Positions 678 to 33,752 of a stretch of 38,160 nucleotides of DNA are shown here, one piece after another (position 1 is the stretch's first letter; each line of letters starts with the position of its first letter). The stretch is from Pseudomonadota bacterium (lineage in GTDB: Bacteria; Myxococcota_A; Polyangia; Polyangiales; JAKSBK01), in assembly GCA_022361155.1 (NCBI GenBank), contig JAKSBK010000566.1, positions 1-38,160 on the forward strand, given 5' to 3'. The notes under the pieces are model-generated. The model was not told where the DNA came from. It did not search any database and saw nothing but the letters and a program-made list of their open reading frames with translations. The position numbers were made by a program, and so were the translations under genes.

Positions 678-705
678 GAGACAGAGCCTAGTGAGACAAA
701 GCCTA
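678..705. repeat. 15-bp tandem repeat across the kinase stop codon
   Basis: GAGACAGAGCCTA (678-690) and GAGACAAAGCCTA (693-705) form two copies with a 15-bp period. The second copy contains the complement of the kinase stop codon (703-705). On the minus strand the duplication therefore places a second in-frame TAG 15 bases after the first (688-690). Confidence 0.7.
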
Positions 706-2469
706 GTAGTCGAGCTTGCGCAGCAGCTTCGTGTTGGACCGCTTGCGGTAGCGGCGCTTCCTGTTCGGACGAGGGTCTCGTGCGGGCGGGGTGGTCCGGG
801 TTGCGACCGTGGGGGTTGCGGTGGGGGCTGGTGCGGGATCGTCGCTGACGGCGAGCGGTGCCTGCGGCAAGATCCCGAGCTCCCATGGTGGAGGCGTGTC
901 TTGCGCTTGGTCCTCGGGAGCTTCGGTCGCGGCGGCCGCCTGTGTGTCCGGCGCCTCGGACCTGCTGGGTGTCGGACGCGGCGCCTTCGCGACGACGTTC
1001 TCGGGGGCCGCCGACTGCGGTTGCGCCGGGTGCGACGTGGTTCCCTGGCGGCCGGTGGTGGCGGAAAGGGCCACCGCAGGCCGTGGTGCGGTCGCTTGCT
1101 CGCTGTGCGCGGCCCGCTGCGACGCGCTGGCCTCGTCAGCAGCGGGACCACGCAACGCAGCCAGCGCGAGCAACGCCACGCCGGCAACAAGCAAAAGGGC
1201 GGCGGCCGCACGCTGGCTGCGGAGCTGCGGCGCGGACGCCAGGTGCGCGAAGTGGCCGCGCAGGTAAGCGGGCAGCGGCTTCAGGCGCTTCGCGAGCACA
1301 TCGACCAACGGGTCGCGTGGGTGCGAGTCCAGGTCGGGTCTTGGGATCGGCTGTGTGACGATGTCGTCCTCGGTGCCGGTCTCGAGCGTCTGTGCGGGAT
1401 CGAGCGGCGTTGTAGCGTTGCGGCTCGAAGCACTGCTGCGCAGTGCGCCAAAGTGCGAATCGCCGGGACCACCGGGGCCGGTAAGATCAGGCAGCGTGGG
1501 GATGAGCGGCACTTCGACCTTGGCTGGAAAGGTCGAGCGCATGGGGCGCGGAAGAATCGATAGCGTATGCACGATGCCGGCGTCCGTGGTGCCCTCGGCA
1601 GCGTCGAGGAGCGCCTGCTGCATCTGGATCGCAGTTTGAAAACGGTCCTCGGGCCGGCGCTGCATCGCACGTGTCACGACATGACATAGCGCAGATCCGA
1701 TTTCGGGGCGCATGGCTCCGATAGGCTCGGCATGGCCCGTGACGATCATGAGGATAAGGTCGCCAATGTTCTCGGAGTCGAACGGCAACCGTCCCGTGAG
1801 CGCCTCGTAGAGTATGACCCCCATGGCGTAGATGTCGCTGCGCGCGTCGATACGGCGCAGGCCGCGCGCCTGCTCAGGCGACATGTACTGTGGCGTGCCG
1901 ACGATGACGCCTTCGCGGGTGGTGAGGGGCGAGCGATGGGTCTTGCGCCGTTGCCCGTCGTCTCCTTCCTCTGCGATCATGCTGCGCGAAATGCCGAAAT
2001 CGAGCAGCTTGGGGTAAGCGCCATCGGGGGCGTCGACCAGGAAGACGTTTTCGGGTTTGAGGTCGCGGTGCACGATGCCCGCGTCGTGCACTGCCGCCAG
2101 GCCCCGCAGCGCCAGGCCCGCCACGCGCACGAGCTCGTCCACCGACAGCGCCGGCTCTCGGTCCATCCGGTCGGCGAGGGTCTCCCCCTGCAGCAGCGAC
2201 ATCACCATGAAAGGCTGGCCCCACTCGGACACACCGAAGTCCAGAATGTCCACCACGTTGCGGTGCTCGATGGCTGCGGCCAGGCGCGCCTCCCGCAGAA
2301 AGCGCTTGGCCTGGAGCTCTGCGTTGGAACCGTGCGTGTAGAGGAACTTGATCGCTACTGGACGTTCGAGCGACAGCTGCGTCGCATCCCAAACGCAACC
2401 CATGCCGCCGTCACCGATCTGGCTCTCCAGCCGATAGCGGTCGACGATCACTGAGCCTCGCTTCAGCAT
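703..2469 (-). CDS. Membrane-anchored Hanks-type serine/threonine protein kinase
   Basis: This 588-residue protein phosphorylates Ser/Thr on target proteins. The kinase domain covers roughly residues 10-290. Visible motifs are the Gly-rich loop IGDGGMGCVW (18-27), the ATP lysine in VAIKF (K41), an Arg/Glu helix with E60, the catalytic loop HRDLKPEN (134-141, D136), DFG (157-159), SPE (197-199) and SDIYAMG (211-217). HRD carries Arg, as in kinases activated through their loop. A Pro/Ser-rich linker follows. A single membrane segment, AAAALLLVAGVALLALAAL, lies at 421-439. The roughly 150-residue C-terminal part outside the membrane is Ala/Pro-rich, low in complexity and without a recognised sensor domain, ending in a basic tail (RPNRKRRYRKR). 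It is divergent from a secreted TPR protein, a common Myxococcota arrangement. The substrate cannot be told. Confidence 0.93.
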   Translation of the reverse strand: MLKRGSVIVDRYRLESQIGDGGMGCVWDATQLSLERPVAIKFLYTHGSNAELQAKRFLREARLAAAIEHRNVVDILDFGVSEWGQPFMVMSLLQGETLADRMDREPALSVDELVRVAGLALRGLAAVHDAGIVHRDLKPENVFLVDAPDGAYPKLLDFGISRSMIAEEGDDGQRRKTHRSPLTTREGVIVGTPQYMSPEQARGLRRIDARSDIYAMGVILYEALTGRLPFDSENIGDLILMIVTGHAEPIGAMRPEIGSALCHVVTRAMQRRPEDRFQTAIQMQQALLDAAEGTTDAGIVHTLSILPRPMRSTFPAKVEVPLIPTLPDLTGPGGPGDSHFGALRSSASSRNATTPLDPAQTLETGTEDDIVTQPIPRPDLDSHPRDPLVDVLAKRLKPLPAYLRGHFAHLASAPQLRSQRAAAALLLVAGVALLALAALRGPAADEASASQRAAHSEQATAPRPAVALSATTGRQGTTSHPAQPQSAAPENVVAKAPRPTPSRSEAPDTQAAAATEAPEDQAQDTPPPWELGILPQAPLAVSDDPAPAPTATPTVATRTTPPARDPRPNRKRRYRKRSNTKLLRKLDY

Positions 2470-5286: not shown

Positions 5287-5863
5287 AAACCCTCCTGCCG
5301 TTGCGGGCGCGAGTATGCGGCAGGGCGTCACCCTGCGCCAGCAGACCTCACGGCCCCTGCGGCGGGCCCACCTTCAAATGCCGCTGGTGGAAGCTCGAAT
5401 CTTCGCATCGTGCGCGGGTTGCGAGGCGGCTGCTTCGGGGCTCGGTGAAAAAAAAGCACAAACCTCTTCCATTTTTGTTTCAAATCGGCACACTCATTCT
5501 CGACTAGCCGGGGCCGAAATATGATTCGAATGGGTTCGTGGGGTGTCCACCCTGCTCGAGGGCTGTATAGGTCGTGCACACACGTGTGCCGGATGCCTCC
5601 GTTACGGGATGTGGTAACCGCGCGCACCGTTGCAACCGTTCTCTGGTGTTACCGGGTGGGGCACCGTTTACGCAGCGGGCATTCAAGCCGGTCCGGCGTT
5701 GCCGCGGGCCTGCGGGTAGGCCGCTGGCGTGAACAGACACCTATGCACTGGCGTGAACAGACACCTATGCCTTGGTGTGAGCGGACACCTATGCAGCTGC
5801 GAGATGAAACGGATTCAACTACCCCCCAATAGGATCGTCACAGCGACTCAGGAGACAAAGCTT
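5287..5863. other. Long divergent spacer between aroC and the Ig-repeat lipoprotein
   Basis: This spacer should hold the promoters of both divergent genes. It has an unusually AT-rich patch for this window at about 5448-5530 (eight A residues in a row, then TTTTTGTTTC), plausibly the aroC promoter region, though no clean -35/-10 pair was found. It also contains the 10-bp palindrome CACACGTGTG (5579-5588) and a three-copy 24-bp tandem repeat (5724-5795). The open frame reading through the repeat into the lipoprotein is unlikely to be translated from 5729. Confidence 0.5.
5724..5795. repeat. 24-bp tandem repeat, three copies, upstream of the Ig-repeat gene
   Basis: Three adjacent 24-bp units begin at 5724, 5748 and 5772. 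The core is TGGCGTGAACAGACACCTAT; the third unit is diverged (GGTGTGAGCGGACACCTATG). No gap separates the units. The last unit ends 68 bp before the ATG at 5864, a position suitable for a repeated protein-binding site. It could also be the relic of a transposon end, since some IS families carry repeated transposase-binding motifs there. Neither role can be shown from sequence. Confidence 0.8.
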
Positions 5864-8800
5864 ATGCGTATACGGAAGGATTGGCGGATCGGGACCCTGG
5901 CTTGCGCGCTGGCGCTTTCAGGCTCCCTGGCGGGCTGTAGCTGCGACGACGATGGGCGGGATCCCCTCCCGGCGCCCCCACTTGCCGAGCTCGAGTCCAT
6001 CGAGGTGAGTCCCGTCTCCGGCAGCTTGGAGATCGGCAGCCCCGAGAGCATTCAGCTGACGGTGACGGGCAACTTCGAAGACGGCATGAGGATCGACGTG
6101 ACTGCCATGGCCATGTGGGCATCGTCCGATCCGAACATCGTGAACGTCAGTCCAACCGGTGTGGTCGCGCCCGGCACATCGCCCGGCGTGGCGGACGTGG
6201 TGGCAACCGTGGTGCGCCTCGGCGACAACATGCCTCTCACGTCGCAGGCCACCATCACCGTCACGGACAGGCCCCAGGTGGATGAGGTCCAGATCAGCCC
6301 ACCGGACCAGGTGATCGCCGTCGGCACGTCGGCGAATTTCACTGCGACCGCCATCTATACAGACGGGACCAACCGTTCCGTCACCGGGATCGCGCAGTGG
6401 CTTTCGAGCGACCCGAGCGTGGCGGTTCCGGACCCTGTGGTTTCGGGCCGTTTCAACGGCGTCGCGCCCGGCATGGCAATGGTGACCGCCATGGATCCGA
6501 GCGGCGTGATGGGCACGGCCCTTCTTACCGTGAAGGCGCCGATGCTGCTGGCGATCGAGGTGACGTACAGGACACCGGGGACGACCAGCGTCCTGCCGGG
6601 CACGACCGCTCAACTCGTGGCGACCGGGATCTACGACGACGCTTCCCGGCAAGAGATCACCAACGACGTCATGTGGGCGAGCGAGCAGACCGGCATCGCC
6701 ACCGTGGATGCCGACGGAGTGGTCATGGGTGTCGCCTCCGGTACCGTCAACATCACGGCTACGCTGGGTGACCAGACCGGCATGCTGACCGTAGTAGTCG
6801 CCGACGCGGTGCCCCTTTCGCTCAGCCTAACTCCGGCCACGGCCACCGTGCCGGTCAACGGAACCGTGAGCCTGATGGCGACGGCCACGTTCTCCGACAA
6901 CACGGCAGCTGACGTGACCACACAGACCATGTGGGCGAGCTCCGACGAGAGCAAGGCTACGGTTGCGGCGGGGCAGGTGCTCGGCAAGGCAAAGACCGAC
7001 GCCGGGGCACCGGCGACGATCACCGCTACCTACACACGCGGCGGCGAGACCGTCGTGGCGACGGCGGCGATCGTGGTGACCGCCTCGCCCACGCGCCTGG
7101 AGGTGACGCCGGCCGCACCGCCGGTGCTGGCCAAGGGCCTGACGCAGAACTTCAGGGCCACGATGCACTACAGCGATGGCTCCACCGTGGACGTGACCTC
7201 GGATGCCAACGTCACCTGGACGAGCTCCAACGAGGCCGCGGCCACGGTCTCGAATGCCGCCGGGAACAAGGGTCAGGTTGAAGCGGTAGCCGACGGCGTG
7301 ACCCAGATCACAGCCAGCTTCAACGACCGCATGGGCACGATGATAGCCTCGTTGCCCGTCGCTCTGCGGACAAGCGATGCTGCGGTGACGAGCATCGAGG
7401 TGTCGCCAGCTTCAGAGAGTGTTCCAGCTACGCTCAAGGTGGCGTACCGGGCAGTGGGCACCTTCAGCGACAGCAGCACCAGAGACATCACCGCGGAAGT
7501 CACGTGGAGCAGCAGCGCGTCCACCGTGGTCAGCATCTCGAACGCGGAGCTGAGCCGAGGTTTGGCCGAGGCCCTTGCTGCGGGGATGGCCACCATCACC
7601 GCCACGCACCCTGGAACCGGCCAGACAGGGACCACCACGCTCACGGTCACCGGCGCCACGCTGTCCAGCATCGACGTCCAGCCGGGCTCTCAGACCATCA
7701 ACCAGGGAGAGACCCTGCAGTATACTGCCACGGGTCGCTTCTCCGACGGCAGCAGCCACGACCTGACCAACGACTCCCGCACCACCTGGAGGAGCAGCGC
7801 CGCCGCGGTGGCGACGGTTTCCACTGCAGCCGGCAGTCAAGGCTTGGCCACCGCAGTGATGTTCGGCTCGGCTACCATCCACGCCACGCGCGGCTCCATC
7901 ACGAACAGCGCGTCGCTCACCGTGGTCTCGACCGAGGTGGCCTCGATCACGGCGAGCATCGACGCTCCCACGCTGCCCGAAGGCCGTACCGGGCAGATCA
8001 GCCTGCAGGCGACCTACACCGATGGAAGCTCACGGCCCATCAGTGCCGAGCTTGCCAGCTACTCGTCGTCTGCCCCGACCATCGCGCAGGTTAGCAGCGC
8101 GGCCGGCAGCAAGGGTCTTGTTACCGGGCTCGAAGCCGGCGGGACCGGTTCGGGCAACTCGGCTTCGGCCACGATCACGGTCAGCTTCGGGGGCAAGTCG
8201 GCCAGCGTCGCGGTGGCGGTGATCGACTGCGCATTCGACGGGCTCACGGTTATCCCCGCTGGCGTCACCGTGCCCAAGGGGGTCAGCCGTCAGTTCCAGG
8301 CTCTGGCGAGCTACCCTGCCTGCGGTGCCGTCAGCTCTGGCGGAACCTACGACGTGACCGGGGCCGCTCTGTGGACCGTCAGCAACACGGCTGTGGCAAG
8401 CGTATCCAACGCCGCGGGCAGTGCGGGTCTGGCCATGGCCCTGCCGGGCGCAGCGAGCGGCGCATCGGCCACGGTAACCGCCACGCTGGGCACCCTGAGC
8501 GACTCGCAGTCTCTGACGGTCACGGGCGCGTGCGCCGAGAGCCTCACGGTGGCGCCGCTCGATCCGACGATCCCAGTGGGCGTCACCAAGCAGCTGTCGA
8601 CCTCGGTCAGCATGAGCGACGGCAGTACCACCACCACCTATCCTGGAGTCCAGTTCTCCGGGGTCAGCGGCGGGGCCGTGGATGTCACGGGTGCCATGGT
8701 GACAGGCATCGCCGCAGGCAGCGAGACGGTTACCGCCAGCATTTCGGTGGCCGACGGAGGTTGCACGGCGATCAGCGCCGAAACCACGTTCACGGTCAGC

Positions 8801-11800
8801 GGCGCCACACTGACGGGCATCAGCGTGAACCCCACCTCGCAGACGGTTCCCCTGGGTTCCAGCGCGTCGTTTGCTGCGACGGGCAACTACAGCGACGGGA
8901 CCAGTCACGACATCACCACGGCTACGGGGACCGACTGGAGCACCGTCAATCCCGGTCTAGCCGAGCCGACCGCCCCCAAGGGCACGATCCTGGCGAAGGC
9001 CGAAGGCACGACGTCGGTCATCGCGTCGAACTCTTCGCTCACGGGCACGGCCCAGCTAACCGTGGTGAACAAGCAGATCACCAAGATCGCGATCAACGTC
9101 GACACCAACGTGGCTGCGGGCACGGCGTGCGCCTTCGAGGGCAACTACCCGGTGGGTGTCGATATCGGCTATACGGCCACGGCCACCTACACCGATGACT
9201 CCACCGCCCCGGTGACTGCGGACGTCACCTGGTCCACCAGCGACGCCACGGTGGCGTCGTTCAAGACGGGCAGCGGCTCACGCAGGCACTACTTGCACGC
9301 CCACAAGGCGGGCTCGGCAGTGATCGACGCCTGCCTCGGCGGCGTCTGCGCTTCGGCTTCGTCGAGCGCCGCGTCTCGCACGCTCACGGTGAGTGCGTCG
9401 CTGTCCCTGACGGCGGTCGAGATCCGTGCGACGGCCGGCTTCGGCGACTTGCAGATCGGCGCGTTTCGCGACTTCCGGGCCTTTGTGATTCACGGAAGCG
9501 GGGAATGTGACGTGACCACCGCGAGCTCCTGGACTGTGGAGGCGCCAATGCCAGCCGGCGTGCTCTCGATCAGCAGCTCGCCCCCCAACGAGGGCAGGGC
9601 GACCGCGGGGGCGGTCGCGGGCGGAGGCAGCGCCAACATCAAGGTCACCTTCCTGGCTCTGTCCGACGTGCGCGGGCTGAGCATCAGCGGGACCTGCTTC
9701 GACGGGCTCAGCATTTCACCGTCGAGCTTGACCGTGAATGCCGGGCGTAGCGGGACGCTGACGGTTTCCGGCAGGCGTTCCGATGGATCGACCACCACCA
9801 ATGTCGGCGGGGTAACCTGGAGCACGAGCGACAACGGCGTGTGTACCGTAACAGGAGGCACGGTTCAGGGTGTGGCTCCGGGCTCCTGCACGGTGACCGC
9901 CTCCCTATCCGGTGGCACCGTGTGCGATCAGGTGACCTCTCCCATCACTGCCACCGCGAGCGTGGCCGTGGACGAGCGGGTGCTGACCGGCATCGCGGTC
10001 AGCTGTCCCGAGGTTCCCGCATCCGGGATTCCGGCGCTGTTCATGACCGACTGCATAGCCACGGGCGCGTTCAGCACCGGACCCACAGCCGATATCACGG
10101 AGCAGGTGACCTGGAGCTCGAGCCTGGCCGCGGTTGCGGCTGTGAGCAACGACCCCGGAAGCAAGGGTATGGTCACCACCACGACCCCGGGCACCGCGAT
10201 CATTCAGGCGGCACAAGGCGTCATCGCGGGCACCTTCTCGCTGGCGGTGAACGGGGCGACCCTCGACACCATCACGCTGGCGCCCGGCAGCGCGAGCAAG
10301 CCCGTGGGCTTCCAGGAGCAGTTCAAGGCCACCGGGCTCTACATCAACCCGACGCAGCAGTTCGATCTGACGGACCAGGTCACCTGGGCGTCGACCGACG
10401 CGACCAAGGTGTCGGTGAGCAGCTCGGGTCTGGCCAGCTTCGTTGCGCAAACGCCCACGCCGAACAGCATCGGATCGGAGGACCCTTCGGTCACGGCCAG
10501 CAAGGACGGCAAGACGGGCAGCGCGCTGGCGAACGTGAACGCGGCGACGCTCGCCTCGATCGCCCTCTCGCCTCACCCGGTTACGGTCGCGGAGGGCTTG
10601 ACCCAGACGTTTACGGCCGAAGGCACCTACTCCGACAACAACACCTCGGACGTGAGCGGGCAGGTCACCTGGTCTACGGCCAATGGCAATGTGGCCACCG
10701 TAGACTCCTCCGGCGTCGCGATCGGAGCGGGCCAGGGCAGCACGCAAGTGCGGGCCACCCTCGGCCAGGTGTTCGGCGAGGCGACCATTACGGTCAGCAG
10801 CGCCTGCATCACGGGCATCACGATACAGCCCGCAACGTTGGGGCGACCTGCCGGCGTGCCGGTGCAGTTCGTGGCAACGGCCCTCCTGTCGGACGGACCC
10901 ACCATCGATGTGACCGACGCTGCGGAATCGGCGTGGTCGAGCAGCGAGCCGGGGGTCATGCCTGCCCCCTCGAGCGCGAACAGCTACAGGCCTGTCACCA
11001 CGGCCCCGGGTTCATCGACGGTCAGCCTCACCTACACAAGCAGCGCGCTGTGCACGAACGTGGGTAGCGGCGGCGCGCTGACGGTAAACGTGCCCGTGAC
11101 GGTAAGCTCGGCTTCCCTGACCAGCATCAGCATCTCGCCTGACGGCGCGGATGTTCCGGTCGGCACCACGCTGCAGTACATGGCGGCCGGCAACTACAGC
11201 GACGGCACCACCCACGACATCACCAGCGTGGTGACGTGGCAGAGCCTCAATGCCACCGCGCTGGCGGAGCAGGGCGGCGGTAGGATGCGCGGGGTGAACG
11301 AGACCGGCGGCTTGACCGTCCTGGTATCGGCGTCGTTAGGTACGCTGGAAGCCACGGTCAACGCTCGCGTAACTTCGGGCGTGCTGAGCAGCATCGCGCT
11401 CAGCGCCGAGGACAGCACGGCGGCCGATTGTGCGCTGAGTTCGACCGTGAGTCCCTCGCATCCGGCCGGAGGTCGCAGGCTCATGGCTCACGCCATGGGC
11501 ACCTTCTCGGACGGCCGCACGGCCCCCCTCATCGGCCAGGTGACCTGGTCTTCCAGCGACGACGCGATAGCCACGGTCGATTCAACCGGTATGATCACCA
11601 CCGGTAGCGCAGGCAGCGTTACGATCACGGCGACCAGTGGCAGCACGACCGCCAATATGACGCTCAGCGTCGTTGGCGGCGCGGCGTCGAACCTGTTCAT
11701 CAACAACGGTGCGCCCGAAGCGAGGGTCGTGCTTGGCAACACCGAGACCAGTCTGTACGCCGAGGTCACGCTGGGCGGGGTGCAGTATTGCGTCAGCCGA

Positions 11801-12232
11801 GATACCAACTGGAGCTCCGCAAACACCGGCGTCGTCGATGTCAGCAACGCTGCCGGCAGCGAGGGTCTGCTGACCACGGTAGCTGTCGACACGGCCAACG
11901 TTACGGCGACGTTGGGCACGCTCATGGACGTGATTCCGGTTGTGGTGTCCAACGAGACGCTGAGCTCGGTCGAGGTGCTGCCGAGCACGCTGGCCCTGTC
12001 CGTGGGCGGCACCGGTCAGCTGCGGGCTTGGGGTGTCTTCAGCGCCGGAACTCGCAACGAGATTACCTCTGATGCGAGCACGACGTGGTCTACGCCAGCG
12101 TCCAGCTCCGCCACGGTAAGCAGCGAAGGGCTCGTGACGTGCGGCTCGGCTGGCACCACCACCGTGACGGCGAGCGCTCCCTCGGGCAGCGGAGGCATGC
12201 CTGCGGGCACGGCGACGGTTACCTGCCAGTAG
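5864..12232 (+). CDS. Giant lipoprotein with 22 bacterial Ig-like (BIG_2-type) repeats
   Basis: I start at ATG 5864 because AGGAG (5850-5854) lies nine bases upstream and the protein then opens with a lipoprotein signal: RIRKDWRIG, a hydrophobic core and the lipobox SLAGC. The mature protein has about 2,100 residues and consists almost wholly of Ig-like units of about 75-110 residues. I count 22. A typical unit runs L.SI.VSP.....VG...Q..A.G.YSDGT..DIT..VTWSSS, then A.VS.AAGSKG.V.....GT..ITAT and a final strand such as LTVTGA. Units with extra Cys occur (8-10, 12-15, 18, 20-22). No catalytic domain or C-terminal anchor was seen; it ends in the last repeat (GTATVTCQ). By family analogy it is a surface or periplasmic adhesion or structural protein. 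Its partner is unknown. Confidence 0.9.
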   Translation: MRIRKDWRIGTLACALALSGSLAGCSCDDDGRDPLPAPPLAELESIEVSPVSGSLEIGSPESIQLTVTGNFEDGMRIDVTAMAMWASSDPNIVNVSPTGVVAPGTSPGVADVVATVVRLGDNMPLTSQATITVTDRPQVDEVQISPPDQVIAVGTSANFTATAIYTDGTNRSVTGIAQWLSSDPSVAVPDPVVSGRFNGVAPGMAMVTAMDPSGVMGTALLTVKAPMLLAIEVTYRTPGTTSVLPGTTAQLVATGIYDDASRQEITNDVMWASEQTGIATVDADGVVMGVASGTVNITATLGDQTGMLTVVVADAVPLSLSLTPATATVPVNGTVSLMATATFSDNTAADVTTQTMWASSDESKATVAAGQVLGKAKTDAGAPATITATYTRGGETVVATAAIVVTASPTRLEVTPAAPPVLAKGLTQNFRATMHYSDGSTVDVTSDANVTWTSSNEAAATVSNAAGNKGQVEAVADGVTQITASFNDRMGTMIASLPVALRTSDAAVTSIEVSPASESVPATLKVAYRAVGTFSDSSTRDITAEVTWSSSASTVVSISNAELSRGLAEALAAGMATITATHPGTGQTGTTTLTVTGATLSSIDVQPGSQTINQGETLQYTATGRFSDGSSHDLTNDSRTTWRSSAAAVATVSTAAGSQGLATAVMFGSATIHATRGSITNSASLTVVSTEVASITASIDAPTLPEGRTGQISLQATYTDGSSRPISAELASYSSSAPTIAQVSSAAGSKGLVTGLEAGGTGSGNSASATITVSFGGKSASVAVAVIDCAFDGLTVIPAGVTVPKGVSRQFQALASYPACGAVSSGGTYDVTGAALWTVSNTAVASVSNAAGSAGLAMALPGAASGASATVTATLGTLSDSQSLTVTGACAESLTVAPLDPTIPVGVTKQLSTSVSMSDGSTTTTYPGVQFSGVSGGAVDVTGAMVTGIAAGSETVTASISVADGGCTAISAETTFTVSGATLTGISVNPTSQTVPLGSSASFAATGNYSDGTSHDITTATGTDWSTVNPGLAEPTAPKGTILAKAEGTTSVIASNSSLTGTAQLTVVNKQITKIAINVDTNVAAGTACAFEGNYPVGVDIGYTATATYTDDSTAPVTADVTWSTSDATVASFKTGSGSRRHYLHAHKAGSAVIDACLGGVCASASSSAASRTLTVSASLSLTAVEIRATAGFGDLQIGAFRDFRAFVIHGSGECDVTTASSWTVEAPMPAGVLSISSSPPNEGRATAGAVAGGGSANIKVTFLALSDVRGLSISGTCFDGLSISPSSLTVNAGRSGTLTVSGRRSDGSTTTNVGGVTWSTSDNGVCTVTGGTVQGVAPGSCTVTASLSGGTVCDQVTSPITATASVAVDERVLTGIAVSCPEVPASGIPALFMTDCIATGAFSTGPTADITEQVTWSSSLAAVAAVSNDPGSKGMVTTTTPGTAIIQAAQGVIAGTFSLAVNGATLDTITLAPGSASKPVGFQEQFKATGLYINPTQQFDLTDQVTWASTDATKVSVSSSGLASFVAQTPTPNSIGSEDPSVTASKDGKTGSALANVNAATLASIALSPHPVTVAEGLTQTFTAEGTYSDNNTSDVSGQVTWSTANGNVATVDSSGVAIGAGQGSTQVRATLGQVFGEATITVSSACITGITIQPATLGRPAGVPVQFVATALLSDGPTIDVTDAAESAWSSSEPGVMPAPSSANSYRPVTTAPGSSTVSLTYTSSALCTNVGSGGALTVNVPVTVSSASLTSISISPDGADVPVGTTLQYMAAGNYSDGTTHDITSVVTWQSLNATALAEQGGGRMRGVNETGGLTVLVSASLGTLEATVNARVTSGVLSSIALSAEDSTAADCALSSTVSPSHPAGGRRLMAHAMGTFSDGRTAPLIGQVTWSSSDDAIATVDSTGMITTGSAGSVTITATSGSTTANMTLSVVGGAASNLFINNGAPEARVVLGNTETSLYAEVTLGGVQYCVSRDTNWSSANTGVVDVSNAAGSEGLLTTVAVDTANVTATLGTLMDVIPVVVSNETLSSVEVLPSTLALSVGGTGQLRAWGVFSAGTRNEITSDASTTWSTPASSSATVSSEGLVTCGSAGTTTVTASAPSGSGGMPAGTATVTCQ

Positions 12233-12278
12233 CCCACAGCGTGCGGTCGACCGCCGCAGGAGCGGTCGGCTGCCCTGG

Positions 12279-12402
12279 GCGGCCGGAGTCCGGCCGCCCA
12301 TTACCCGAGGCAAAGCAATGCGCGGCCGGAGTCCGGCCGCCCATTACCCGAAGCAATGCGCGGCCTGAAGCAGTCCGGCGGCTCTCTATCCGAAGCCATG
12401 CG
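12279..12402. repeat. Hairpin-forming tandem repeat, three copies, reaching into the next gene's start
   Basis: Copies 1 (12279-12321) and 2 (12322-12359) each begin with the near-perfect palindrome GCGGCCGGAGTCCGGCCGC, then CCATTACCCGA and GCAATGC. Copy 3 (12360-12402) is degenerate (GCGGCCTGA-AGCAG-TCCGGCGGC, then TATCCGAAGCCATGCG). The ATG in copy 3 (12398) is the likely start of the next lipoprotein, and copies 1 and 2 carry an equivalent ATGCG. A separate 12-bp palindrome, GCGGTCGACCGC, lies at 12243-12254. The hairpins lie between the two lipoprotein genes and could end or attenuate transcription, but no U-run follows. Confidence 0.8.
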
Positions 12403-12835
12403 CGCCCGCTCCCGCGTCATACCCTGCCTGGCGCTGATCGTGACCGTTGTAGCCTGCGGGGGATCCGGCGAACCTGCATGCGTGGCGCAATTGCCTCGCG
12501 CCTCGCAGGGCGAGTGCAATCTCCAGTACATGCCGACCTTCGACCGCATCTACCTCGAGACGCTCGGTAGCGGAAGCTGCGGTACGGTCGAGGGGCTCAT
12601 GTGCCACTCGCCTAACGCTTCGGCCGGTGGCCTGATTCTCGCTGCAGACGAGAACACGGCTTTTCGATCGCTGCTGCAAGGCGGCCGCGTCATCCCCTTC
12701 GATCCCGAGTGCAGTCCCCTGATGCGGCGTCTGGAGTCCGGGAAAGCGGATTTCCAGATGCCGCCTGGCGGCCAGCTTAGCCCGCAAGTGCGTTGTGCTA
12801 TTGTTGAGTGGATCGCCAACGGCGCCCCACGCTAG
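12398..12835 (+). CDS. Predicted lipoprotein resembling a degenerate cytochrome c domain
   Basis: I start at ATG 12398, which gives a standard lipoprotein signal (MRARSRVIPCLALIVTVVAC, lipobox VVAC); an upstream ATG at 12356 would only add repeat-derived residues. The product has 145 residues. The mature part has TFDRIYLETL, CGTVEGLMCHS, NASAGGLIL, SPLMRRLESG, FQMPPGGQLS and IVEWIANGAP. That order matches planctomycete-type or other cytochrome c domains (CxxCH, GGL.L, SPL..R, MPP.G.L, I..WI..GAP). The CxxCH heme motif itself is not intact: the two Cys lie seven residues apart (C-GTVEGLM-CH). Six further Cys suggest disulfides. It may be a heme-less relative or an electron-transfer-like surface protein. 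It follows the Ig-repeat gene on the same strand. Confidence 0.7.
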   Translation: MRARSRVIPCLALIVTVVACGGSGEPACVAQLPRASQGECNLQYMPTFDRIYLETLGSGSCGTVEGLMCHSPNASAGGLILAADENTAFRSLLQGGRVIPFDPECSPLMRRLESGKADFQMPPGGQLSPQVRCAIVEWIANGAPR

Positions 12836-12836
12836 C

Positions 12837-12963
12837 TCGTGTCTGGCCAGAATGGCGCCATGGCGGCTTTCGTCCTCGCAGCGCAGCTTGAAATAGCGCT
12901 GCTATTCCATCGCTCCGCTGCTTCGGGCGCGCTCGCCCTGGCATCCATTCTGTCCAGACACGA
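12837..12963. repeat. Large palindromic element, copy A (REP/MITE-like)
   Basis: It begins one base after the TAG of the preceding gene. The outer arms TCGTGTCTGG (12837-12846) and CCAGACACGA (12954-12963) pair perfectly. Next inward, CAGAATGG and CCATTCTG pair, then CCA with TGG. Further inside GCAGCG pairs with CGCTGC, and the centre is AATAGC-GCT-GCTATT (12892-12906). Copy B at 17945-18066 shares the CAGAATGGCGCCA block, the central AATAGCGCTGCTATTCC and GGGCGCGCT...CTGGCATCCATTCTG. Its outer and inner arms differ in sequence yet still pair. Confidence 0.85.
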
Positions 12964-12984
12964 AGTCGTGGAAAGGCACGAAGG

Positions 12985-13027
12985 ATGGCGCCATGGCGGC
13001 TTTCGTCCTCGCAGCGCAGCTTGAAAT
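12985..13027. repeat. 43-bp exact half copy of the palindromic element
   Basis: The 43 bases at 12985-13027 (ATGGCGCCATGGCGGCTTTC to CAGCGCAGCTTGAAAT) are identical to 12852-12894 of copy A. Only the left half is present, and it ends seven bases short of the sigma gene's stop codon. Between the copies, TCGTG-GAAAGG-CACGA can form a small hairpin. Confidence 0.85.
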
Positions 13028-13033
13028 GGGGGT

Positions 13034-13618
13034 TTAGGTGGCGGCGTTTGGGATCGCGGTGAGGTGCGAGCGGTCTCGGGCTTCCAGGATGCGCAGTTGC
13101 CGCTCGAGCAGCGACCGCGCCGACCGCAAACGTGCGTACACGGCTGCGGGCGTGACACCCTGCTCGCGGGCAACCTCGGCGACAGCCCGATGCTCCAGGG
13201 CCACCTCGATTAGCGTGTCGCGCCTGGTGTGATCGAGGCCTTGCAGGAGTCGTCCGACCCGCCTCGCTTCTTGTGTCCAGGCACAGCGCTGCTCGGGACT
13301 GCTCGCCGAGCTGGGCTGCCTGCCATCGATGTACTCCAGCTTTCGCTGCCGTTGCGCCCGGCGTTTGTACTCGGAGGCGACGTTGCGACACACACCGGAG
13401 ATCCAGGTGCCCACGCTCGAGCGTCGAGCAAACTTTGCCTGCCCGAGCCAAACACCGACAAGCACGTCCTGTTGCGCGTCGTCCAGGCTCGACGCTGTGA
13501 CACCAAGGCGGGCCAGGTGGCTTCGGACCAGGTTACGATACTTGGCTGCAAGCGATCCGAAACTCTGCCGCGCGCATCGGATAGGCTGGGTCTCGATACA
13601 AGCAGAAGCTGGATTCAT
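13034..13618 (-). CDS. ECF-type RNA polymerase sigma factor
   Basis: This sigma-70 family protein would direct RNA polymerase to a small regulon. I start at ATG 13618 because GGGAG lies upstream at suitable spacing and the protein then has a normal ECF length of 194 residues; the frame is open further upstream, but that part has no sigma features. Region 2 covers about residues 20-85 (LAAKYRNLVRSHLARLG, DDAQQDVLVGVWLG, VGTWISGVCRNVASEYKRR). Region 4 covers about 125-180 (LLQGLDHTRRDTLIEV, AVAEVAREQGVTPAAVYARL), a helix-turn-helix expected to bind the -35 element. No anti-sigma gene is adjacent on this strand. A hairpin may cover its ribosome site. Confidence 0.88.
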   Translation of the reverse strand: MNPASACIETQPIRCARQSFGSLAAKYRNLVRSHLARLGVTASSLDDAQQDVLVGVWLGQAKFARRSSVGTWISGVCRNVASEYKRRAQRQRKLEYIDGRQPSSASSPEQRCAWTQEARRVGRLLQGLDHTRRDTLIEVALEHRAVAEVAREQGVTPAAVYARLRSARSLLERQLRILEARDRSHLTAIPNAAT

Positions 13619-13998
13619 TTGTGCCGCTCCCTGATTCTCGGCAACCACGGCCCAGGGAGAAGCAAGACATGTGCCGTAGCTTTCACCGCGTCGCCAGGGT
13701 CCTGCAACCGTGCTGGTCCACGGGGGCCGCGACCACGTTACGAGGCGAGCGCGCCACGGTTTGCGATCGTCCGCAGTTCCGGTGTGGTCAGAAAGCCACA
13801 GTCGTGATCTGCGTTCTTCTTGAAAACCGTGGCGGAAACGGCGTCGCACGCGGGCGGACGCCGGGCTAGCCCTGACATCGCTGCTGGCGGCGGGACGAGG
13901 CAGAGGGTACCAGCCCATGTAGGGCTAGTGACTCGACGGTTCAGTCCGCGGCCCCTTCGAGGAGCCTTGCTGGGCCTACGCCGTACGGGCGTGGAGCG
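13619..13998. other. Spacer upstream of the sigma factor gene
   Basis: This 380-bp gap lies between moaB and the sigma gene, both on the minus strand. It holds the hairpin at 13627-13659 and an 8-bp inverted repeat, CTAGCCCT (13866-13873) with AGGGCTAG (13921-13928). The sigma reading frame stays open through most of it, but its translation there shows no recognisable domain. No clear promoter was identified. Confidence 0.4.
13627..13659 (-). promoter_or_regulatory. Candidate RNA hairpin covering the sigma factor's ribosome-binding site
   Basis: On the minus strand, CTCCCTG (13659-13653) can pair over seven bases with CAGGGAG (13633-13627), leaving a 19-base loop. The second arm contains the AGGGAG Shine-Dalgarno sequence of the sigma gene, with ATG at 13618. 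Folding would hide the ribosome site, as in thermometers or other translational switches. The pairing is visible; the role is inference. Confidence 0.35.
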
Positions 13999-27211: not shown

Positions 27212-27727
27212 CTGTTCAGGCCCCTGTCAGTCGGGTTTTCAGGCGGTTTTCCGGGCGAGCGCGCCCGCAGGAATCGCCCGAGGAGTACTTGTGGGCTGCG
27301 GTTGGAATCAGCTGCGGCGCAGGGCGAGGACGAGGACGAAAGCTGTCCAGAAAACCGCCTGGGAAGGCGCCATGCAAGCGTGGTCACCCCGTGAACAATT
27401 ACTGCGAAACTGCATCGTCAAACCTGCACCGCCTCTCGCCCGGGCCCGCGGATCTCGCAGGGTTCGCTCGTAGGGTTCGAGCAGGGTTCGGCAGATTCCA
27501 GTTTGTCCGCGAGTAGTGTACAAGAGTAAGGGCCCGTCCAAGAATGATTCAATCGGCTGCGGCCGTGCAGGGCGGCGCGCGGCTGGCGGCCAACAGGCCG
27601 GCGAATCGCCGTCGCAACGGTTGAGCTGTTTCAAGTAGAGCTGTTTCGAGGAGGTTTCACGGAGATAGTCGCGAGGCGTTCGTTGCTGCGGCCGCCTCCA
27701 GGAGCGTGCGAATCACGTGAGGAATCG
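27212..27727. other. Long spacer upstream of the phenylacetate operon
   Basis: This spacer holds no gene that I can support. It contains an inverted-repeat element (27240-27361); three copies of AGGGTTCG (27459-27466, 27472-27479, 27483-27490), possibly an operator; the palindrome CGGCGAATCGCCG (27599-27611); and a direct repeat GAGCTGTTTC (27623-27632 and 27638-27647) about 80 bp before paaG. The operon promoter should be here, but no clear -35/-10 pair was seen. A short plus-strand open frame (27040-27516) has no protein-like features. Confidence 0.5.
27240..27361. repeat. Inverted-repeat element in the paa upstream spacer
   Basis: The arms CAGGCGGTTTTCCGG (27240-27254) and CCAGAAAACCGCCTG (27347-27361) are complementary except for one base, 92 bp apart. 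Inside, CCGCAG with CTGCGG and GCCC with GGGC can pair around AGTACT. The total length is 122 bp. It carries no coding sequence. No target-site duplication was seen. Confidence 0.6.
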
Positions 27728-28537
27728 ATGTTGCAGGAAACCTGCCGGTATGAGTACGTACGCTTTGGTGTTGAAGAGCAATCGGGCATCGCCCGCCTGA
27801 CTCTGAGCCGACCCAAGAAGCTCAACAGCTTCAATCGGCAGATGGCGCAGGAGTTTCTCGGTGCGCTGGAGCGTTGCTCCCACAGCGCTGTGCGCACACT
27901 GCTCGTTACGGGCTCGGACCGTGCCTTTAGCGCAGGCCAGGATCTCGAGGATGTACTCGACGCGGATGGCAAGCCCGGCGTGGATTTGGCCGGCGTCGTA
28001 GCGACGCAGTGGGTCCCGATGCTGCGCGCGATCGGCGCGCTGGAAAAGCCGGTGATCTGCGCTGTCAACGGCGTCGCGGCCGGCGCCGGAGCAAACCTGG
28101 CATTGGCATGCGACTTCGTGCTGGCAGCAGAAACCGCGGTGTTCGTACAGTCGTTCGCGAAGATCGGGCTGATTCCCGATTGCGGCGGCAGCTTCTTGCT
28201 GCCACGGCTGGTGGGCCTCGCGCGAGCCAAGGCCATGGTGATGCTCGCCAACGAGGTGAGCGCCGTGGAAGCCGAGCGCATCGGTCTTATCTACCGAGCA
28301 GTGCCGGCCCCACACCTGCTCCCGGAAAGCGAGAAGCTTGCCGCTCGACTCGCCAGCGCGCCCACCACGGGCTTGGGTCTGACGAAACGCCTCTTCAACC
28401 AGTCGCTCCACAACGACCTCGAGCGGCAGCTGGCGCTCGAGGCCACGCTGCAGGGCGAGGCCGGTCGTAGCCACGACTACAAGGAAGGCGTGGCCGCGTT
28501 TCTAGAAAAGCGCAAACCCACCTTCACGGGCCGGTGA
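27728..28537 (+). CDS. paaG: Enoyl-CoA isomerase PaaG (1,2-epoxyphenylacetyl-CoA isomerase)
   Basis: PaaG converts ring-1,2-epoxyphenylacetyl-CoA to oxepin-CoA in aerobic phenylacetate breakdown, and may also move double bonds later. I start at ATG 27728 after GAGGAA, giving 269 residues. The sequence follows E. coli PaaG closely: LTLSRPKKLNSFN (25-37), FSAGQDL (67-73), KPVICAVNGVAAGAGANLAL (107-126), FAKIGLIPDCGGSFLLPR (143-160, with the catalytic Asp151 in IPDCGG), TTGLGLTKRLFN, GRSHDYKEGV and FTGR at the end. It is the first gene of a tight operon; its TGA is nine bases before the ATG of the next gene. The repeats in the 516-bp spacer upstream may control it. Confidence 0.93.
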   Translation: MLQETCRYEYVRFGVEEQSGIARLTLSRPKKLNSFNRQMAQEFLGALERCSHSAVRTLLVTGSDRAFSAGQDLEDVLDADGKPGVDLAGVVATQWVPMLRAIGALEKPVICAVNGVAAGAGANLALACDFVLAAETAVFVQSFAKIGLIPDCGGSFLLPRLVGLARAKAMVMLANEVSAVEAERIGLIYRAVPAPHLLPESEKLAARLASAPTTGLGLTKRLFNQSLHNDLERQLALEATLQGEAGRSHDYKEGVAAFLEKRKPTFTGR

Positions 28538-28545
28538 GACACTCC

Positions 28546-29799
28546 ATGCAACACTTCACGCAACGTGGTGCCCCCGAGGACAAAGCCCTTCGGAGCTCGA
28601 CCCCCGCGCCCGTTCTCGTGCTCGGCGCAGGCGCCATGGGAACGGGGATCGCGCAGATCGCGGCGACGCATGGCCACACGACCTACCTCTACGACACGCA
28701 CGGGCAGGCGCTTGCGCGCGCTCGCACCACCCTGAACAAGGTCCTCGGCCGCCAGGTCGATAAAGGGCGGATCACGCGAACCGAAGCGGATGCGGCGCTC
28801 GCGCGAGTCCAGGCCGTGGATGAGCTGACCCCGCGGCTGGCCGGCGCGTTCCTGGCCGTCGAGGCGGTGGTCGAAGACCTTGCCACGAAACAGCAGCTGT
28901 TCAGGCAGCTCGAGGAACTGCTTGACGACGACAGCCTGCTGGCGACCAATACCTCCTCGCTGTCCGTAACCGCGATCGCGTCGGCCTGCCGGCAACCAGG
29001 TCGGGTCGTGGGTTTGCACTTTTTCAACCCTGCACCGGTGATGGCGCTCGTCGAAGTCGTCAGTGCGCTGCAGACCGACCGACACGCTGCGGACCGGGCG
29101 CGAGCCTTGGTGGCCGGCTGGGGCAAGACCGCCGTACGGGTAGCGGACACACCGGGTTTCATAGTCAACCGTGTGGCCCGGCCCTTCTACGGAGAGGCGC
29201 TCAGATTGCTCGAGGAGGGTGTCGCGGACGAGGCGACCATCGATTGGGCCATGCGTGACATCGGAGGCTTTCGCATGGGACCCTTCGAGCTGATGGATTT
29301 CATCGGCAACGACGTCAATCTAGCCGCCACCCAATCGGTTTACGCCGCGCTCTACCAGGACAGTCGTTTCAAACCGTTTTTGCGGCAGCAGCGCCTGGTT
29401 GAAGCGGGATTCCTGGGACGCAAGAGCGGTCGCGGTCACTACCGCTACGACGATGCCGGCAGACCGGTCGACATGCCCAGCCCCAAGCGCGACCCGCAAG
29501 CCGGGCGCAGCATCGTGGATCGCATCGTGGCCATGCTGATCAACACGGCGGCCGACGCTGTGCTGCTCGGCGTGGCCAGCCCGGAGAGCGTCGATCTGGC
29601 CATGACCAAGGGCGTCAACTACCCCAAGGGTCTGCTGGCCTGGGCCGATGAGATAGGCATCGATCGGGTGGTGCAACGCCTGCGTGCGATCGCGGACGAG
29701 TACGGCGAAGAACGCTACCGCCCTTGTGTGCTGCTAACACGCATGGCGAAGACCGGGGCGCGCTTCTTCGGGCACGTTGGGGACGGGAGCGAACGATGA
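28546..29799 (+). CDS. paaH: 3-hydroxyacyl-CoA dehydrogenase PaaH
   Basis: PaaH oxidises 3-hydroxyadipyl-CoA to 3-oxoadipyl-CoA with NAD. The NAD-binding motif VLVLGAGAMGTGIA lies at 23-36, the catalytic His in GLHFFNPAPVM is H158, and ATNTSSLSVT (133-142) follows the Rossmann fold. The first C-terminal 3HCDH domain has DTPGFIVNRVARPFYGEALR and GPFELMDFIGND. A second, shorter copy follows (RIVAMLINTAADAVLLGVAS, MTKGVNYPKGLLAWADEIG), as in PaaH rather than in simple FadB-like proteins. I chose ATG 28546, with GGTGAG eight bases upstream; a GTG at 28534 overlapping paaG by GTGA would add four residues. The stop overlaps the next gene by ATGA. Confidence 0.93.
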   Translation: MQHFTQRGAPEDKALRSSTPAPVLVLGAGAMGTGIAQIAATHGHTTYLYDTHGQALARARTTLNKVLGRQVDKGRITRTEADAALARVQAVDELTPRLAGAFLAVEAVVEDLATKQQLFRQLEELLDDDSLLATNTSSLSVTAIASACRQPGRVVGLHFFNPAPVMALVEVVSALQTDRHAADRARALVAGWGKTAVRVADTPGFIVNRVARPFYGEALRLLEEGVADEATIDWAMRDIGGFRMGPFELMDFIGNDVNLAATQSVYAALYQDSRFKPFLRQQRLVEAGFLGRKSGRGHYRYDDAGRPVDMPSPKRDPQAGRSIVDRIVAMLINTAADAVLLGVASPESVDLAMTKGVNYPKGLLAWADEIGIDRVVQRLRAIADEYGEERYRPCVLLTRMAKTGARFFGHVGDGSER

Positions 29800-31019
29800 C
29801 GGCGCAGAAGCACGCCTATCTCGTCGACGGGATCCGGACGCCGATAGCGAAATTCGCCGGAGGGCTGGCGCAGGTACGAGCAGACGATCTGCTCGCACTG
29901 ACCATTGAAGCCCTGCTCGAGCGCAATCCCAGCGTGGACCATGACGCCATCGACGATGTGGTTGCCGGATGCGCGAACCAAGCGGGCGAGGACAACCGCA
30001 ATGTCGCGCGCATGGCAGCGCTCTTGGCCAAGCTTCCGGTAACAGTCCCCGGCGAAACCATCAACCGTCTGTGTGCCTCGGGCATGAGCGCAGTGGTCCA
30101 CGCGGCCCGTGCGATCGCGGTGGGTCAGGGCGAGCTCTTCGTTGCCGGCGGTGTCGAACACATGACGCGTGCGCCTTACGTACTGTCGAAGACTGCGACG
30201 GCATTCGGCCGCAACGCAGAGTTGTTCGACACCAGTCTCGGCTGGCGTTTCGTCAATCCAAAAATGCAGGCGCAGTACGGCACCCACTCCATGGGCGAGA
30301 CCGCTGAAAACGTCGCAGAGCGTTTTGGCATCCCGCGCGAGCCCCAGGATCGCTTCGCCCTGAGCTCGCAGCTCAAGGCGAAGGCGGCGCGCGAGCGCGG
30401 GCGTCTCGGACGCGAAATCGTGAAGGTGGAAATCCCGCAGCGCAAGGGCCCGGCGCGTGTCTGCGATCAGGACGAGTTCATCCGCCCCGACACGCGCATC
30501 GAAGACCTGAGCAGGCTCAGGCCTGCTTTCCGCCGCGACGGAAGGGGCACGGTTACGGCGGGCAACTCGTCCGGCATCAACGACGGAGCCTGTGCGCTGC
30601 TCGTCGCCTCGGACGCAGCCTGCCAGCGCTACGGGCTCGCCCCCAAAGCTCGCCTCGTCACCAGCGCGGTGGCGGGCGTAGAGCCGCAGGTGATGGGCCT
30701 GGGACCCATCGAAGCCACGAAGCGGGCGCTGTCGCGCGCCGAGCTTTCGCTGGCCGATGTGGACGTCATCGAAATCAACGAGGCCTTTGCCGTCCAGGTG
30801 CTGGCTTGCCTCGCGCGACTCGACCTAGAGGCGGGCGATCCGCGCGTAAACCCGAACGGCGGCGCCATTGCTCTTGGTCATCCGCTCGGAATGAGCGGCG
30901 CGCGCCTGCTCCACACAGCCATGCTCGAGCTCGAGGAGCACCGCAAACGCTACGCGCTGTGTACGATGTGCGTCGGCGTCGGCCAGGGCATGGCGACCAT
31001 CATCGAGCGCGTGCAGTGA
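29796..31019 (+). CDS. paaJ: 3-oxoadipyl-CoA / 3-oxo-5,6-dehydrosuberyl-CoA thiolase PaaJ
   Basis: The thiolase cleaves 3-oxo-5,6-dehydrosuberyl-CoA and 3-oxoadipyl-CoA, yielding acetyl-CoA and finally succinyl-CoA. The start ATG 29796 overlaps the paaH stop (ATGA) and follows GGGAG at six bases. The 407 residues match the usual length. Catalytic residues are visible: Cys93 in [14 protein letters not shown], His362 in [15 protein letters not shown] and Cys392 in [20 protein letters not shown] and [14 protein letters not shown] are further family motifs. The assignment to PaaJ rather than a generic acetyl-CoA acetyltransferase rests on the operon. Its TGA overlaps the GTG of paaY by GTGA. Confidence 0.93.
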
Positions 31020-31672
31020 GCAACACCTACGAGTTCGAAGGTGTCAAGCCCGTAATCGACGCGAGCGCGTTCGTGCATCCCGCGGCCGTGGTGGTCGGCA
31101 ATGTGCAGATCGGAAAGGACGTATATGTCGGACCCGGAGCGACCATCCGCGGAGATTGGGGCGAGATCATCATCGAGGATGGCTGCAACGTGCAGGAGAG
31201 CTGTACCATTCACATGTTTCCCGGCGTCACCGTCCGACTGGAGGCAGCAGCACACATCGGGCACGGCGCCATCGTCCATGGGGCATGCATCGGCGCGAAC
31301 GCGCTCGTGGGCATGAACGCCGTGGTGATGGACAACGCCCGAGTTGGGGCTGGAGCCATCGTCGGCGCGCTGGCGCTGGTGCCAAGCGAGATGGTGGTCC
31401 CCGAGCGCAAGCTGGTGGTGGGAAACCCGGCCCGCATCGTCAGGGATGTGAGCGACGACATGCTGGCGTGGAAAAGCGACGGGACGGCCCTGTACCAGAG
31501 CCTGCCCGAAAGCCTGCGCCGGACCCTGAAGCCGTGCACGCCTCTGCGCCGGCGCCCGAAGCGTCGAGCCAGCCAGGCTGCTCGCTACAAGACCTGGCGC
31601 GAAACGCTTGCGGCCACGAGAGGAGTAGAAACGGGCAGGCGGAAGCGACAGACAGCGAAGGACGAGTCATGA
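31016..31672 (+). CDS. paaY: Hexapeptide-repeat protein PaaY (gamma-carbonic-anhydrase-like thioesterase)
   Basis: PaaY is reported as a thioesterase that clears dead-end CoA products of the pathway. The protein starts at GTG 31016 (GTGA overlap with paaJ) and has 218 residues. It reads YEFEGVKPVIDASAFVHPAA, then IGKDVYVGPGATIRGDWGEI, CNVQESCTIHMFPGV and HIGHGAIVHGACIGANALVG, followed by MNAVVMDNARVGAGAIVGA and LVVGNPARIVRDVSDDMLAW. These are left-handed beta-helix hexapeptides with His at about 66, 80, 83 and 88 as metal-ligand candidates. The match to E. coli PaaY extends through LAWK...G...YQ. The basic C-terminal tail (CTPLRRRPKRRASQAARYK) is longer than usual. The stop overlaps paaZ by ATGA. 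Confidence 0.92.
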   Translation: MSNTYEFEGVKPVIDASAFVHPAAVVVGNVQIGKDVYVGPGATIRGDWGEIIIEDGCNVQESCTIHMFPGVTVRLEAAAHIGHGAIVHGACIGANALVGMNAVVMDNARVGAGAIVGALALVPSEMVVPERKLVVGNPARIVRDVSDDMLAWKSDGTALYQSLPESLRRTLKPCTPLRRRPKRRASQAARYKTWRETLAATRGVETGRRKRQTAKDES

Positions 31673-33729: not shown

Positions 33730-33752
33730 CAGACGCGTGTCCCGGAGGTGCC

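Follow-up and report, generated by a model that had tools for sequence, protein, structure and literature searches.

The 38,160-nucleotide stretch of DNA analysed here (contig JAKSBK010000566.1 of the GenBank assembly GCA_022361155.1, positions 1 to 38,160 of the forward strand, in the following called the window) contains a gene for a lipoprotein that is built of 22 immunoglobulin-like (Ig-like) units, and it raises the question of whether such a chain is a row of interchangeable spacers or an ordered structure in which the position of each unit matters. The organism is a Pseudomonadota bacterium that is placed in the lineage Myxococcota_A; Polyangia; Polyangiales; JAKSBK01. Its assembly comprises 5.41 Mb in 608 contigs, of which the window is contig 566, and it was the sole genome compared from its genus and family. 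Comparison with orthologues revealed that the distal units are retained in the same order, with many cysteines at matching places, across orders of the class; it is thus improbable that these units are spacers which could be swapped for one another.

The open reading frame (5864..12232, forward strand) is translated into 2,122 amino acids followed by a stop codon. The protein will be called P, and its units are numbered U1 to U22 from the N- to the C-terminus. The ATG at 5864 is preceded, at a distance of 9 nt, by an AGGAG (5850..5854, forward strand) that is its likely ribosome-binding site; an alternative in-frame GTG is present at 5729, and the reading frame is open from there too. The gene starts with a signal peptide and the lipobox LAGC (5864..5938, forward strand), which is formed by L22-A23-G24-C25, the codon of the lipidated Cys25 being 5936-5938. 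After LAG the mature start reads C25 and then SCDDDG, and the column of the lipidated cysteine was conserved in the alignment of four orthologues. According to excerpts of PMC3222651, most inner-membrane lipoproteins of Myxococcus xanthus carry Lys at position +2, and most matrix lipoproteins carry Ala at position +7. P has Ser at +2 and Gly at +7, and its orthologue L107 has Asp and Ala at these positions. The Ser at +2 of P, in place of the Lys of most inner-membrane lipoproteins in these excerpts, counts for the outer membrane.

A self-trained profile detected exactly 22 domains between residues 41 and 2121; their independent E-values lie between 1.2e-31 and 4e-17, the units are 85-108 residues long, and the mean identity between them is 28%. 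In leave-one-out scoring every unit (16.1-84.2 bits) was above the best of its own shuffles (3.5-11.4 bits), of which there were 200 for each unit except unit 13, with 199; unit 13 was also the weakest and came closest to its best shuffle (16.1 vs 10.0 bits). With the Pfam model Big_2 (PF02368) alone, 12 stretches score above the gathering threshold (E 7.1e-107; 350 bits vs a cut-off of 22.8), and the count of 22 therefore depends on the self-trained profile. The other Pfam match of P was one further Big-like model below its cut-off, and the NCBIfam search of P gave no match. The first-pass annotation, made from the letters of the sequence, had described a lipoprotein of about 2,120 residues with 22 Ig-like repeats and with no anchor, enzyme or export domain at the C-terminus, and this description held. 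The units extend to residue 2121, and Pfam and NCBIfam revealed no domain beyond the Ig-like units, and none at the distal tip. Likewise, neither a surface-export domain nor a surface-layer (S-layer) anchor domain was found in P with Pfam, and the sequence searches gave no match of the units to an enzyme carrier.

P was compared with H (the array of locus L076, 21 units), L107 and L108 (19 units each), L114 (25 units), L115 and L116, and with L109 and L120 as contrasts. The alignment with H was nearly full-length at 34% identity, and the register was clear: blastp gave 698 bits, and the next-best register had 263. The in-register excess over the units was 45.5, a value that was reached by none of 1000 permutations, and the signal was strong from unit 5 onward. 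L107 and L108, which are 93% identical to one another, both align to units 4-22 of P, with 549 vs 145 bits and 566 vs 212 bits, respectively, for the best vs the next register. L114, which is from another order of the class, had 37% identity to P (801 vs 358 bits) and 41% identity to H (1046 bits vs 442 bits for the next register). An offset test at the level of units, with 300 permutations for each of seven partners among the class-wide matches, placed P in register with the orthologues H, L107 and L114, which come from three other lineages, and gave weaker matches to L115 and L116 (0/300 permutations in each case). In the same test L109 (31 units) and L120 (19 units) had no register match to P (p 0.57 and 0.76). 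Register and cysteine positions were thus kept across orders at 32-41% identity.

The comparison of repeat numbers in relatives that had been proposed in the first-pass annotation gave arrays of 19, 21, 22 and 25 units. By their offsets, H, L107, L114 and L115 end level with P at the C-terminus (L116 is interrupted by a contig end), so that the differences in unit number arise in the membrane-proximal part. Units 1-3 (5987..6805, forward strand) are the membrane-proximal region in which the number varies among orthologues, and units 4-22 (6806..12229, forward strand) are matched in register by the orthologues of 19, 21 and 25 units, as judged from alignments and permutations. The gap between P and H falls in units 2-3 and not at the extreme N-terminal end. 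For L115 the count was 22 or 23 units, depending on the threshold. The close pair L107 and L108 aligned without gaps over 1,848 codons with a nonsynonymous rate (dN) of 0.036, a synonymous rate (dS) of 0.090 and a dN/dS of 0.40; by this measure the coding sequence of the array is constrained in this comparison. A search for fast-evolving units as binding sites was abandoned, as the per-unit dN and dS values of this pair were too small for a ranking.

The cysteines gave a second line of evidence. The repeats of P contain 20 cysteines, all of which can be paired within the chain. When P, H, L107, L108 and L114 were aligned together, Cys occupied nine columns in all five proteins (789, 890, 1215, 1278, 1354, 1381, 1397, 1648 and 1976), and at five further places every protein had a Cys, offset by no more than a few columns (820/823, 966/967, 1085/1089, 1730/1735 and 1855/1856). 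Since 14 cysteines thus have counterparts in all five proteins, the majority look like disulfides within the chain, and the inferred pairing would be 789-820, 890-967, 1089-1215, 1278-1354, 1381-1397, 1648-1730 and 1856-1976. Units 10, 14 and 18 have one Cys pair in common, which is present in L115 also. Units 12 and 13 as well as units 20 and 21 have one recurrent Cys each, and, thus, these two pairs would bridge neighbouring units. C1089 and C1215 in units 12-13 (9074..9688, forward strand) and C1856 and C1976 in units 20-21 (11372..11950, forward strand) therefore look like candidate inter-unit staples. In L115 the cysteines of units 12, 13, 20 and 21 are missing all together, which is consistent with staples. 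The remaining cysteines of P come in twos (1157/1162, 1327/1342 and 2093/2121), and a pair in unit 22 (2103/2107) is found in H, L107, L108 and L114 and not in P. The totals of repeat cysteines were even in P (20), H (18), L114 (22) and L115 (20); L116 had 30, in a frame truncated by the contig end. The units of L109 and L120 are free of cysteines. It had been claimed that several units carry extra cysteines in positions not shared by others, which could cross-link neighbours. The first part was only partly right, since units 10, 14 and 18 share a pair and most cysteines recur in orthologues. Concerning the second part, cross-links between molecules are disfavoured by the recurrence in orthologues and by the even totals; a weaker form of the proposal, links between neighbouring units of one chain, is consistent with two candidate pairs.

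Within P alone the similarity of units was raised at separations of 4, 8 and 12 (p 0.007, best of seven periods), and for H alone a signal with period 4 was not found (p 0.555). Jointly, P and H gave p 0.034 over units 2-22; over units 7-22, a segment picked after inspection of the data, p was 0.0016, or 0.0022 when the cysteines were masked. The suggested four-unit super-repeats in units 7-22 (7649..12229, forward strand) hint at growth of the array by copying of blocks of four.

Structure prediction of consecutive units, which had likewise been proposed, was performed for two four-unit segments, with alignments of ten non-overlapping rows from the window and L076 sequences. Both models were all-beta Ig chains with no listed helix of at least four residues. 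The mean predicted local distance difference test (pLDDT) and the predicted template modelling score (pTM) were 83.9 and 0.55 for units 11-14 and 82.1 and 0.52 for units 19-22. Together with the sequence these models support the elongated chain that had been envisaged for the protein. A phmmer search for solved relatives was led by the teneurin-like structures 9ifo (E 6e-32) and 9pt5 (E 7e-32), which matched via repeats near their N-termini, followed by LigA 8gyr (E 2.9e-25, matching units 6-7); further sequence matches were single LigB or Lig-like domains (2mh4, 2n7s, 2mqg and 2mog). With the model of units 11-14, Foldseek placed LigA 8gyr at rank 3, below two nuclear-pore chains, and VIA-align placed it at rank 1 (Z 15.9), with a root-mean-square deviation (rmsd) of 13.2 over 177 residues in units 11-12 of the model, so that the domains match and the inter-domain angle does not. 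The same model also matched the S-layer arrays SbsC, EA1 and Sap and cadherin chains. The nuclear-pore and cadherin matches were not retained as specific relatives and were read as generic beta-sandwich chains.

Ig arrays are not restricted to this genome. Of 53 genomes sampled from the order, 16 had Big_2 matches, as did 5 of 14 named control genomes. With units 9-10 as query, 13 of 183 genomes of the order (E 1e-8) and 26 of 289 genomes of a class-wide sample (E 1e-10) were retrieved, the own genome included in both cases. P excluded, 30 retrieved frames contained Ig units, 25 of them at least 8; in 22 of these 25 the last unit ended at most 12 residues from the C-terminus, and 20 of the 22 had a lipobox-like site by a loose motif. 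L110, L118 and L119 are not Ig-only, as several hundred residues precede the first unit. The mature start of L060, L062, L064, L065, L111 and L112 reads C-G-R, often followed by a tether rich in Asp, Gly and Ala, and P and H differ from them in this respect. L109 (1620-10322, reverse strand) is a Cys-free array of 2,901 codons whose 31 units match P about equally in several registers, and it is apparently a homogenised contrast to the arrays with a fixed register. Within its own genome P had a single other match, a frame of 433 codons (contig 522, L027:9577-10875, forward strand) that encodes four Ig units and lacks a clear lipobox. The search of viral contigs revealed no relative, and neither did that of genome contigs with the single P sequence. 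With an alignment as query, the latter returned one named record, CAIUAC010000216.1 from the uncultured Sandaracinus sp. isolate LJ-7-9m_bin-0205, which carries the same array as contig C216 of the same-order genome G006; NCBI assigns Sandaracinus to Polyangiales, Myxococcota. Among the literature matches listed, no title or abstract opening dealt with this family of register-matched arrays.

The upstream neighbour of the array gene encodes chorismate synthase on the opposite strand. Downstream follow a small lipoprotein with a PSCyt1-like domain (12356-12835, forward strand, about 123 bp past the array stop) and a sigma-70-like factor assigned with Pfam (13034-13918, reverse strand). Between the array gene and the small lipoprotein gene lie two 41-nt GC-rich palindromic repeats (12276..12359, forward strand), which fold into a strong hairpin (z -5.0; none of 200 shuffles as stable) and may mark a transcription end; the core of the repeat has two copies in the assembly, both at this site. 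Homologues of the PSCyt1-type protein were present in 15 of 56 genomes of the order, the own included. The frame after them matched multihaem cytochrome families in all four loci scanned, and a YtkA protein followed the cytochrome in both loci scanned for YtkA; the gene in the window stands without cytochrome and YtkA neighbours. Three direct repeats with 24-nt spacing are found at 5725-5804, 59-69 nt and further upstream of the ATG; they have no other copy in the assembly, even when two mismatches are allowed, and are possibly the site of a regulator. A 46-nt direct repeat (12849-12894 and 12982-13027, 98% identical, 133 nt apart) lies between the PSCyt1 and sigma-factor genes. Rfam gave no match in the window.

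Neighbours were compared between the window and ten other array loci with frames picked by codon bias, a comparison that is incomplete and missed the Ig frame of L064. The window has a Ser/Thr kinase gene (Pfam; 703-2469, reverse strand), and kinase-like frames also lie no more than several kb from the arrays of L061, L063 and L076 (29-39% identity between the loci). Kinases are numerous in myxobacteria; therefore, the shared kinase neighbours, which may be due to chance, were not built on. The extracytoplasmic function (ECF)-like sigma factor of the window was 27% identical to one near the L061 array. A gene beside L060, L062, L063 and L065 is common to these loci, with an SNF2 helicase in L060, and a few further neighbour matches concerned single pairs. 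The L076 array is preceded by a PAS histidine kinase gene and followed by CBS and Hsp20 genes. Within the loci compared, the array gene seems to travel alone. Gliding, predation and cell-cell contact had been named as possible roles, and no neighbouring gene in the window or in the compared array loci points to any of them. More distant in the window are a run of genes of the fatty-acid beta-oxidation type (domain search; 27683-34526, forward strand), which comprises an enoyl-CoA hydratase, a hydroxyacyl-CoA dehydrogenase, a thiolase, an aldehyde dehydrogenase-MaoC fusion and a hydratase, and the gene of an outer-membrane barrel protein whose N-terminal domain is carboxypeptidase-regulatory-like and which weakly matches Big_1 (domain search; 34550-37339, reverse strand).

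The reading preferred for P, with a probability of about 0.5, is that of an outer-membrane, probably surface-exposed rod of the LigA type, with distal units that are not interchangeable and with surfaces, matrix or cells as its binding partners. The lipid on C25 would tether the N-terminus to the outer membrane. From there the chain would extend as a long rod, most likely on the cell surface. The distal units would bear specific binding faces, the intradomain disulfides and the two inter-unit staples would set the shape of the rod, and the proximal units would set its reach. The whole would be a many-site adhesive like LigA that grips surfaces, matrix or other cells and has no enzymatic or effector tip. 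For its parts, a location in the outer membrane is likely and exposure on the surface probable, and an adhesive or contact role is plausible.

A periplasmic lipoprotein, the chain of which runs along the outer membrane or the peptidoglycan as a scaffold or spacer, is unlikely: a lipobox alone is silent on the leaflet, P lacks a detectable surface-export domain, and disulfides form in the periplasm too, but an Ig domain is about 4 nm long, and 22 of them far exceed the width of the periplasm. In addition, LigA, the nearest protein of the same plan, sits on the surface, as stated in excerpts of PMC7821625. The fold matches of units 11-14 to SbsC, EA1, Sap and cadherin chains, and a fixed distal order that suits ordered packing, could also indicate a self-associating coat or a homotypic cell-cell connector, comparable to the Ig arrays of S-layers or to cadherins. 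This is quite unlikely, as no S-layer anchor domain was found and the matches are to generic beta-sandwich chains, with 10-22% identity and a large rmsd in most rows.

A passive stalk, in which the units contribute length and nothing else and their order persists by chance of descent, would be in line with the Cys-free arrays L109 and L120, which have no fixed register with P. The fixed distal order of P, kept together with the cysteine positions at 32-41% identity between orders, argues against a plain stalk, and P has no distal domain to present; this explanation is improbable. Joint work with the PSCyt1-type lipoprotein, e.g., to hold an electron-transfer protein at the surface, is barely credible. 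The gene is near and on the same strand, and its homologues precede cytochrome genes, but nine stretches of 14.6-20 kb around homologues contained no Ig unit in any frame of at least 80 codons, the strong hairpin separates the two genes, and the orthologue L076 has other genes next to it. An operon or a functional link of the two was therefore rejected.

Several observations weigh against a LigA-like surface rod with a fixed register and staples. The register signal between P and H was weak at units 2-4 and absent at unit 19, and the in-register partner ranked first for only 5 and second for 7 of 21 single units; single units are often better matched out of register, and the register claim rests on the whole array. 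L116 carries a Cys in unit 12 and none in unit 13, the odd total of 19 repeat cysteines in L107 makes the parity argument imperfect, and C1089 and C1856 sit in or beside the worst-predicted insertions of the four-unit models. The pTM values and the rmsd to LigA leave the domain angles unfixed in the models. Position +7 of P is Gly and not the Ala that is linked to matrix export in M. xanthus in the excerpts of PMC3222651, and no neighbouring gene in the window or the compared loci supports adhesion.

A further-reaching version of the preferred reading is possible but on the doubtful side. P would then belong to a Polyangia family of register-fixed Ig rods, in which the distal 19 units form a stiff rod of defined shape with four-unit super-repeats, with disulfide-locked units 10, 14 and 18, with staples at 12/13 and 20/21 that are eight units apart, and with a reach that is tuned near the membrane only. 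Such rods would be a bacterial counterpart of large Ig-type cell-contact proteins of fixed order, and a partner would be read along the whole length. In the common view, long repeat proteins gain and lose units freely; here, the distal order is kept across orders and length varies near the anchor. Should every distal unit serve a purpose of its own, P would offer a concrete example of the organisation of a bacterial Ig rod and of the way in which these bacteria might adjust the reach of cell contact.

Taken together, P is close to a known kind of protein. Excerpts of PMC7821625 describe the Lig proteins of Leptospira as a lipoprotein signal followed by 12 or 13 Big_2 domains, and LigA, which has no C-terminal extension, as a lipidated, surface-exposed, elongated protein that binds host proteins via several domains. 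P shares with LigA, LigB and LigC the lipoprotein signal peptide followed by Big_2 domains (PMC7821625), and it places the LigA-type plan of a lipid anchor and Ig domains in free-living bacteria. It differs from the Lig proteins of these excerpts in having 22 units instead of 13 or 12, in its recurrent cysteine pattern and in its phylum, and the similarity tested was that of single Big_2 domains and hence no evidence of orthology. The teneurin-like proteins 9ifo and 9pt5 resemble P in their N-terminal Big_2-like repeats, which match units 5-8; about the first 360 of their more than 2,100 residues were aligned, and the remainder has no counterpart in P. The S-layer arrays are Ig-like chains as well, with fold matches to P, which differs by the lack of a Pfam anchor domain of that kind, by low identity and by a large rmsd. 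Like P, many of the Big_2-type arrays of the order and class (L059-L066, L069, L109-L112 and L117-L121) possess a lipobox-like site, and their units continue as far as the C-terminus; unlike P, several carry a long Asp/Gly/Ala-rich tether. Against this background, and at the level of the sequences compared, what is new in P and its orthologues is the unit-for-unit conservation, the change of length near the membrane and the recurrent cysteine pattern.

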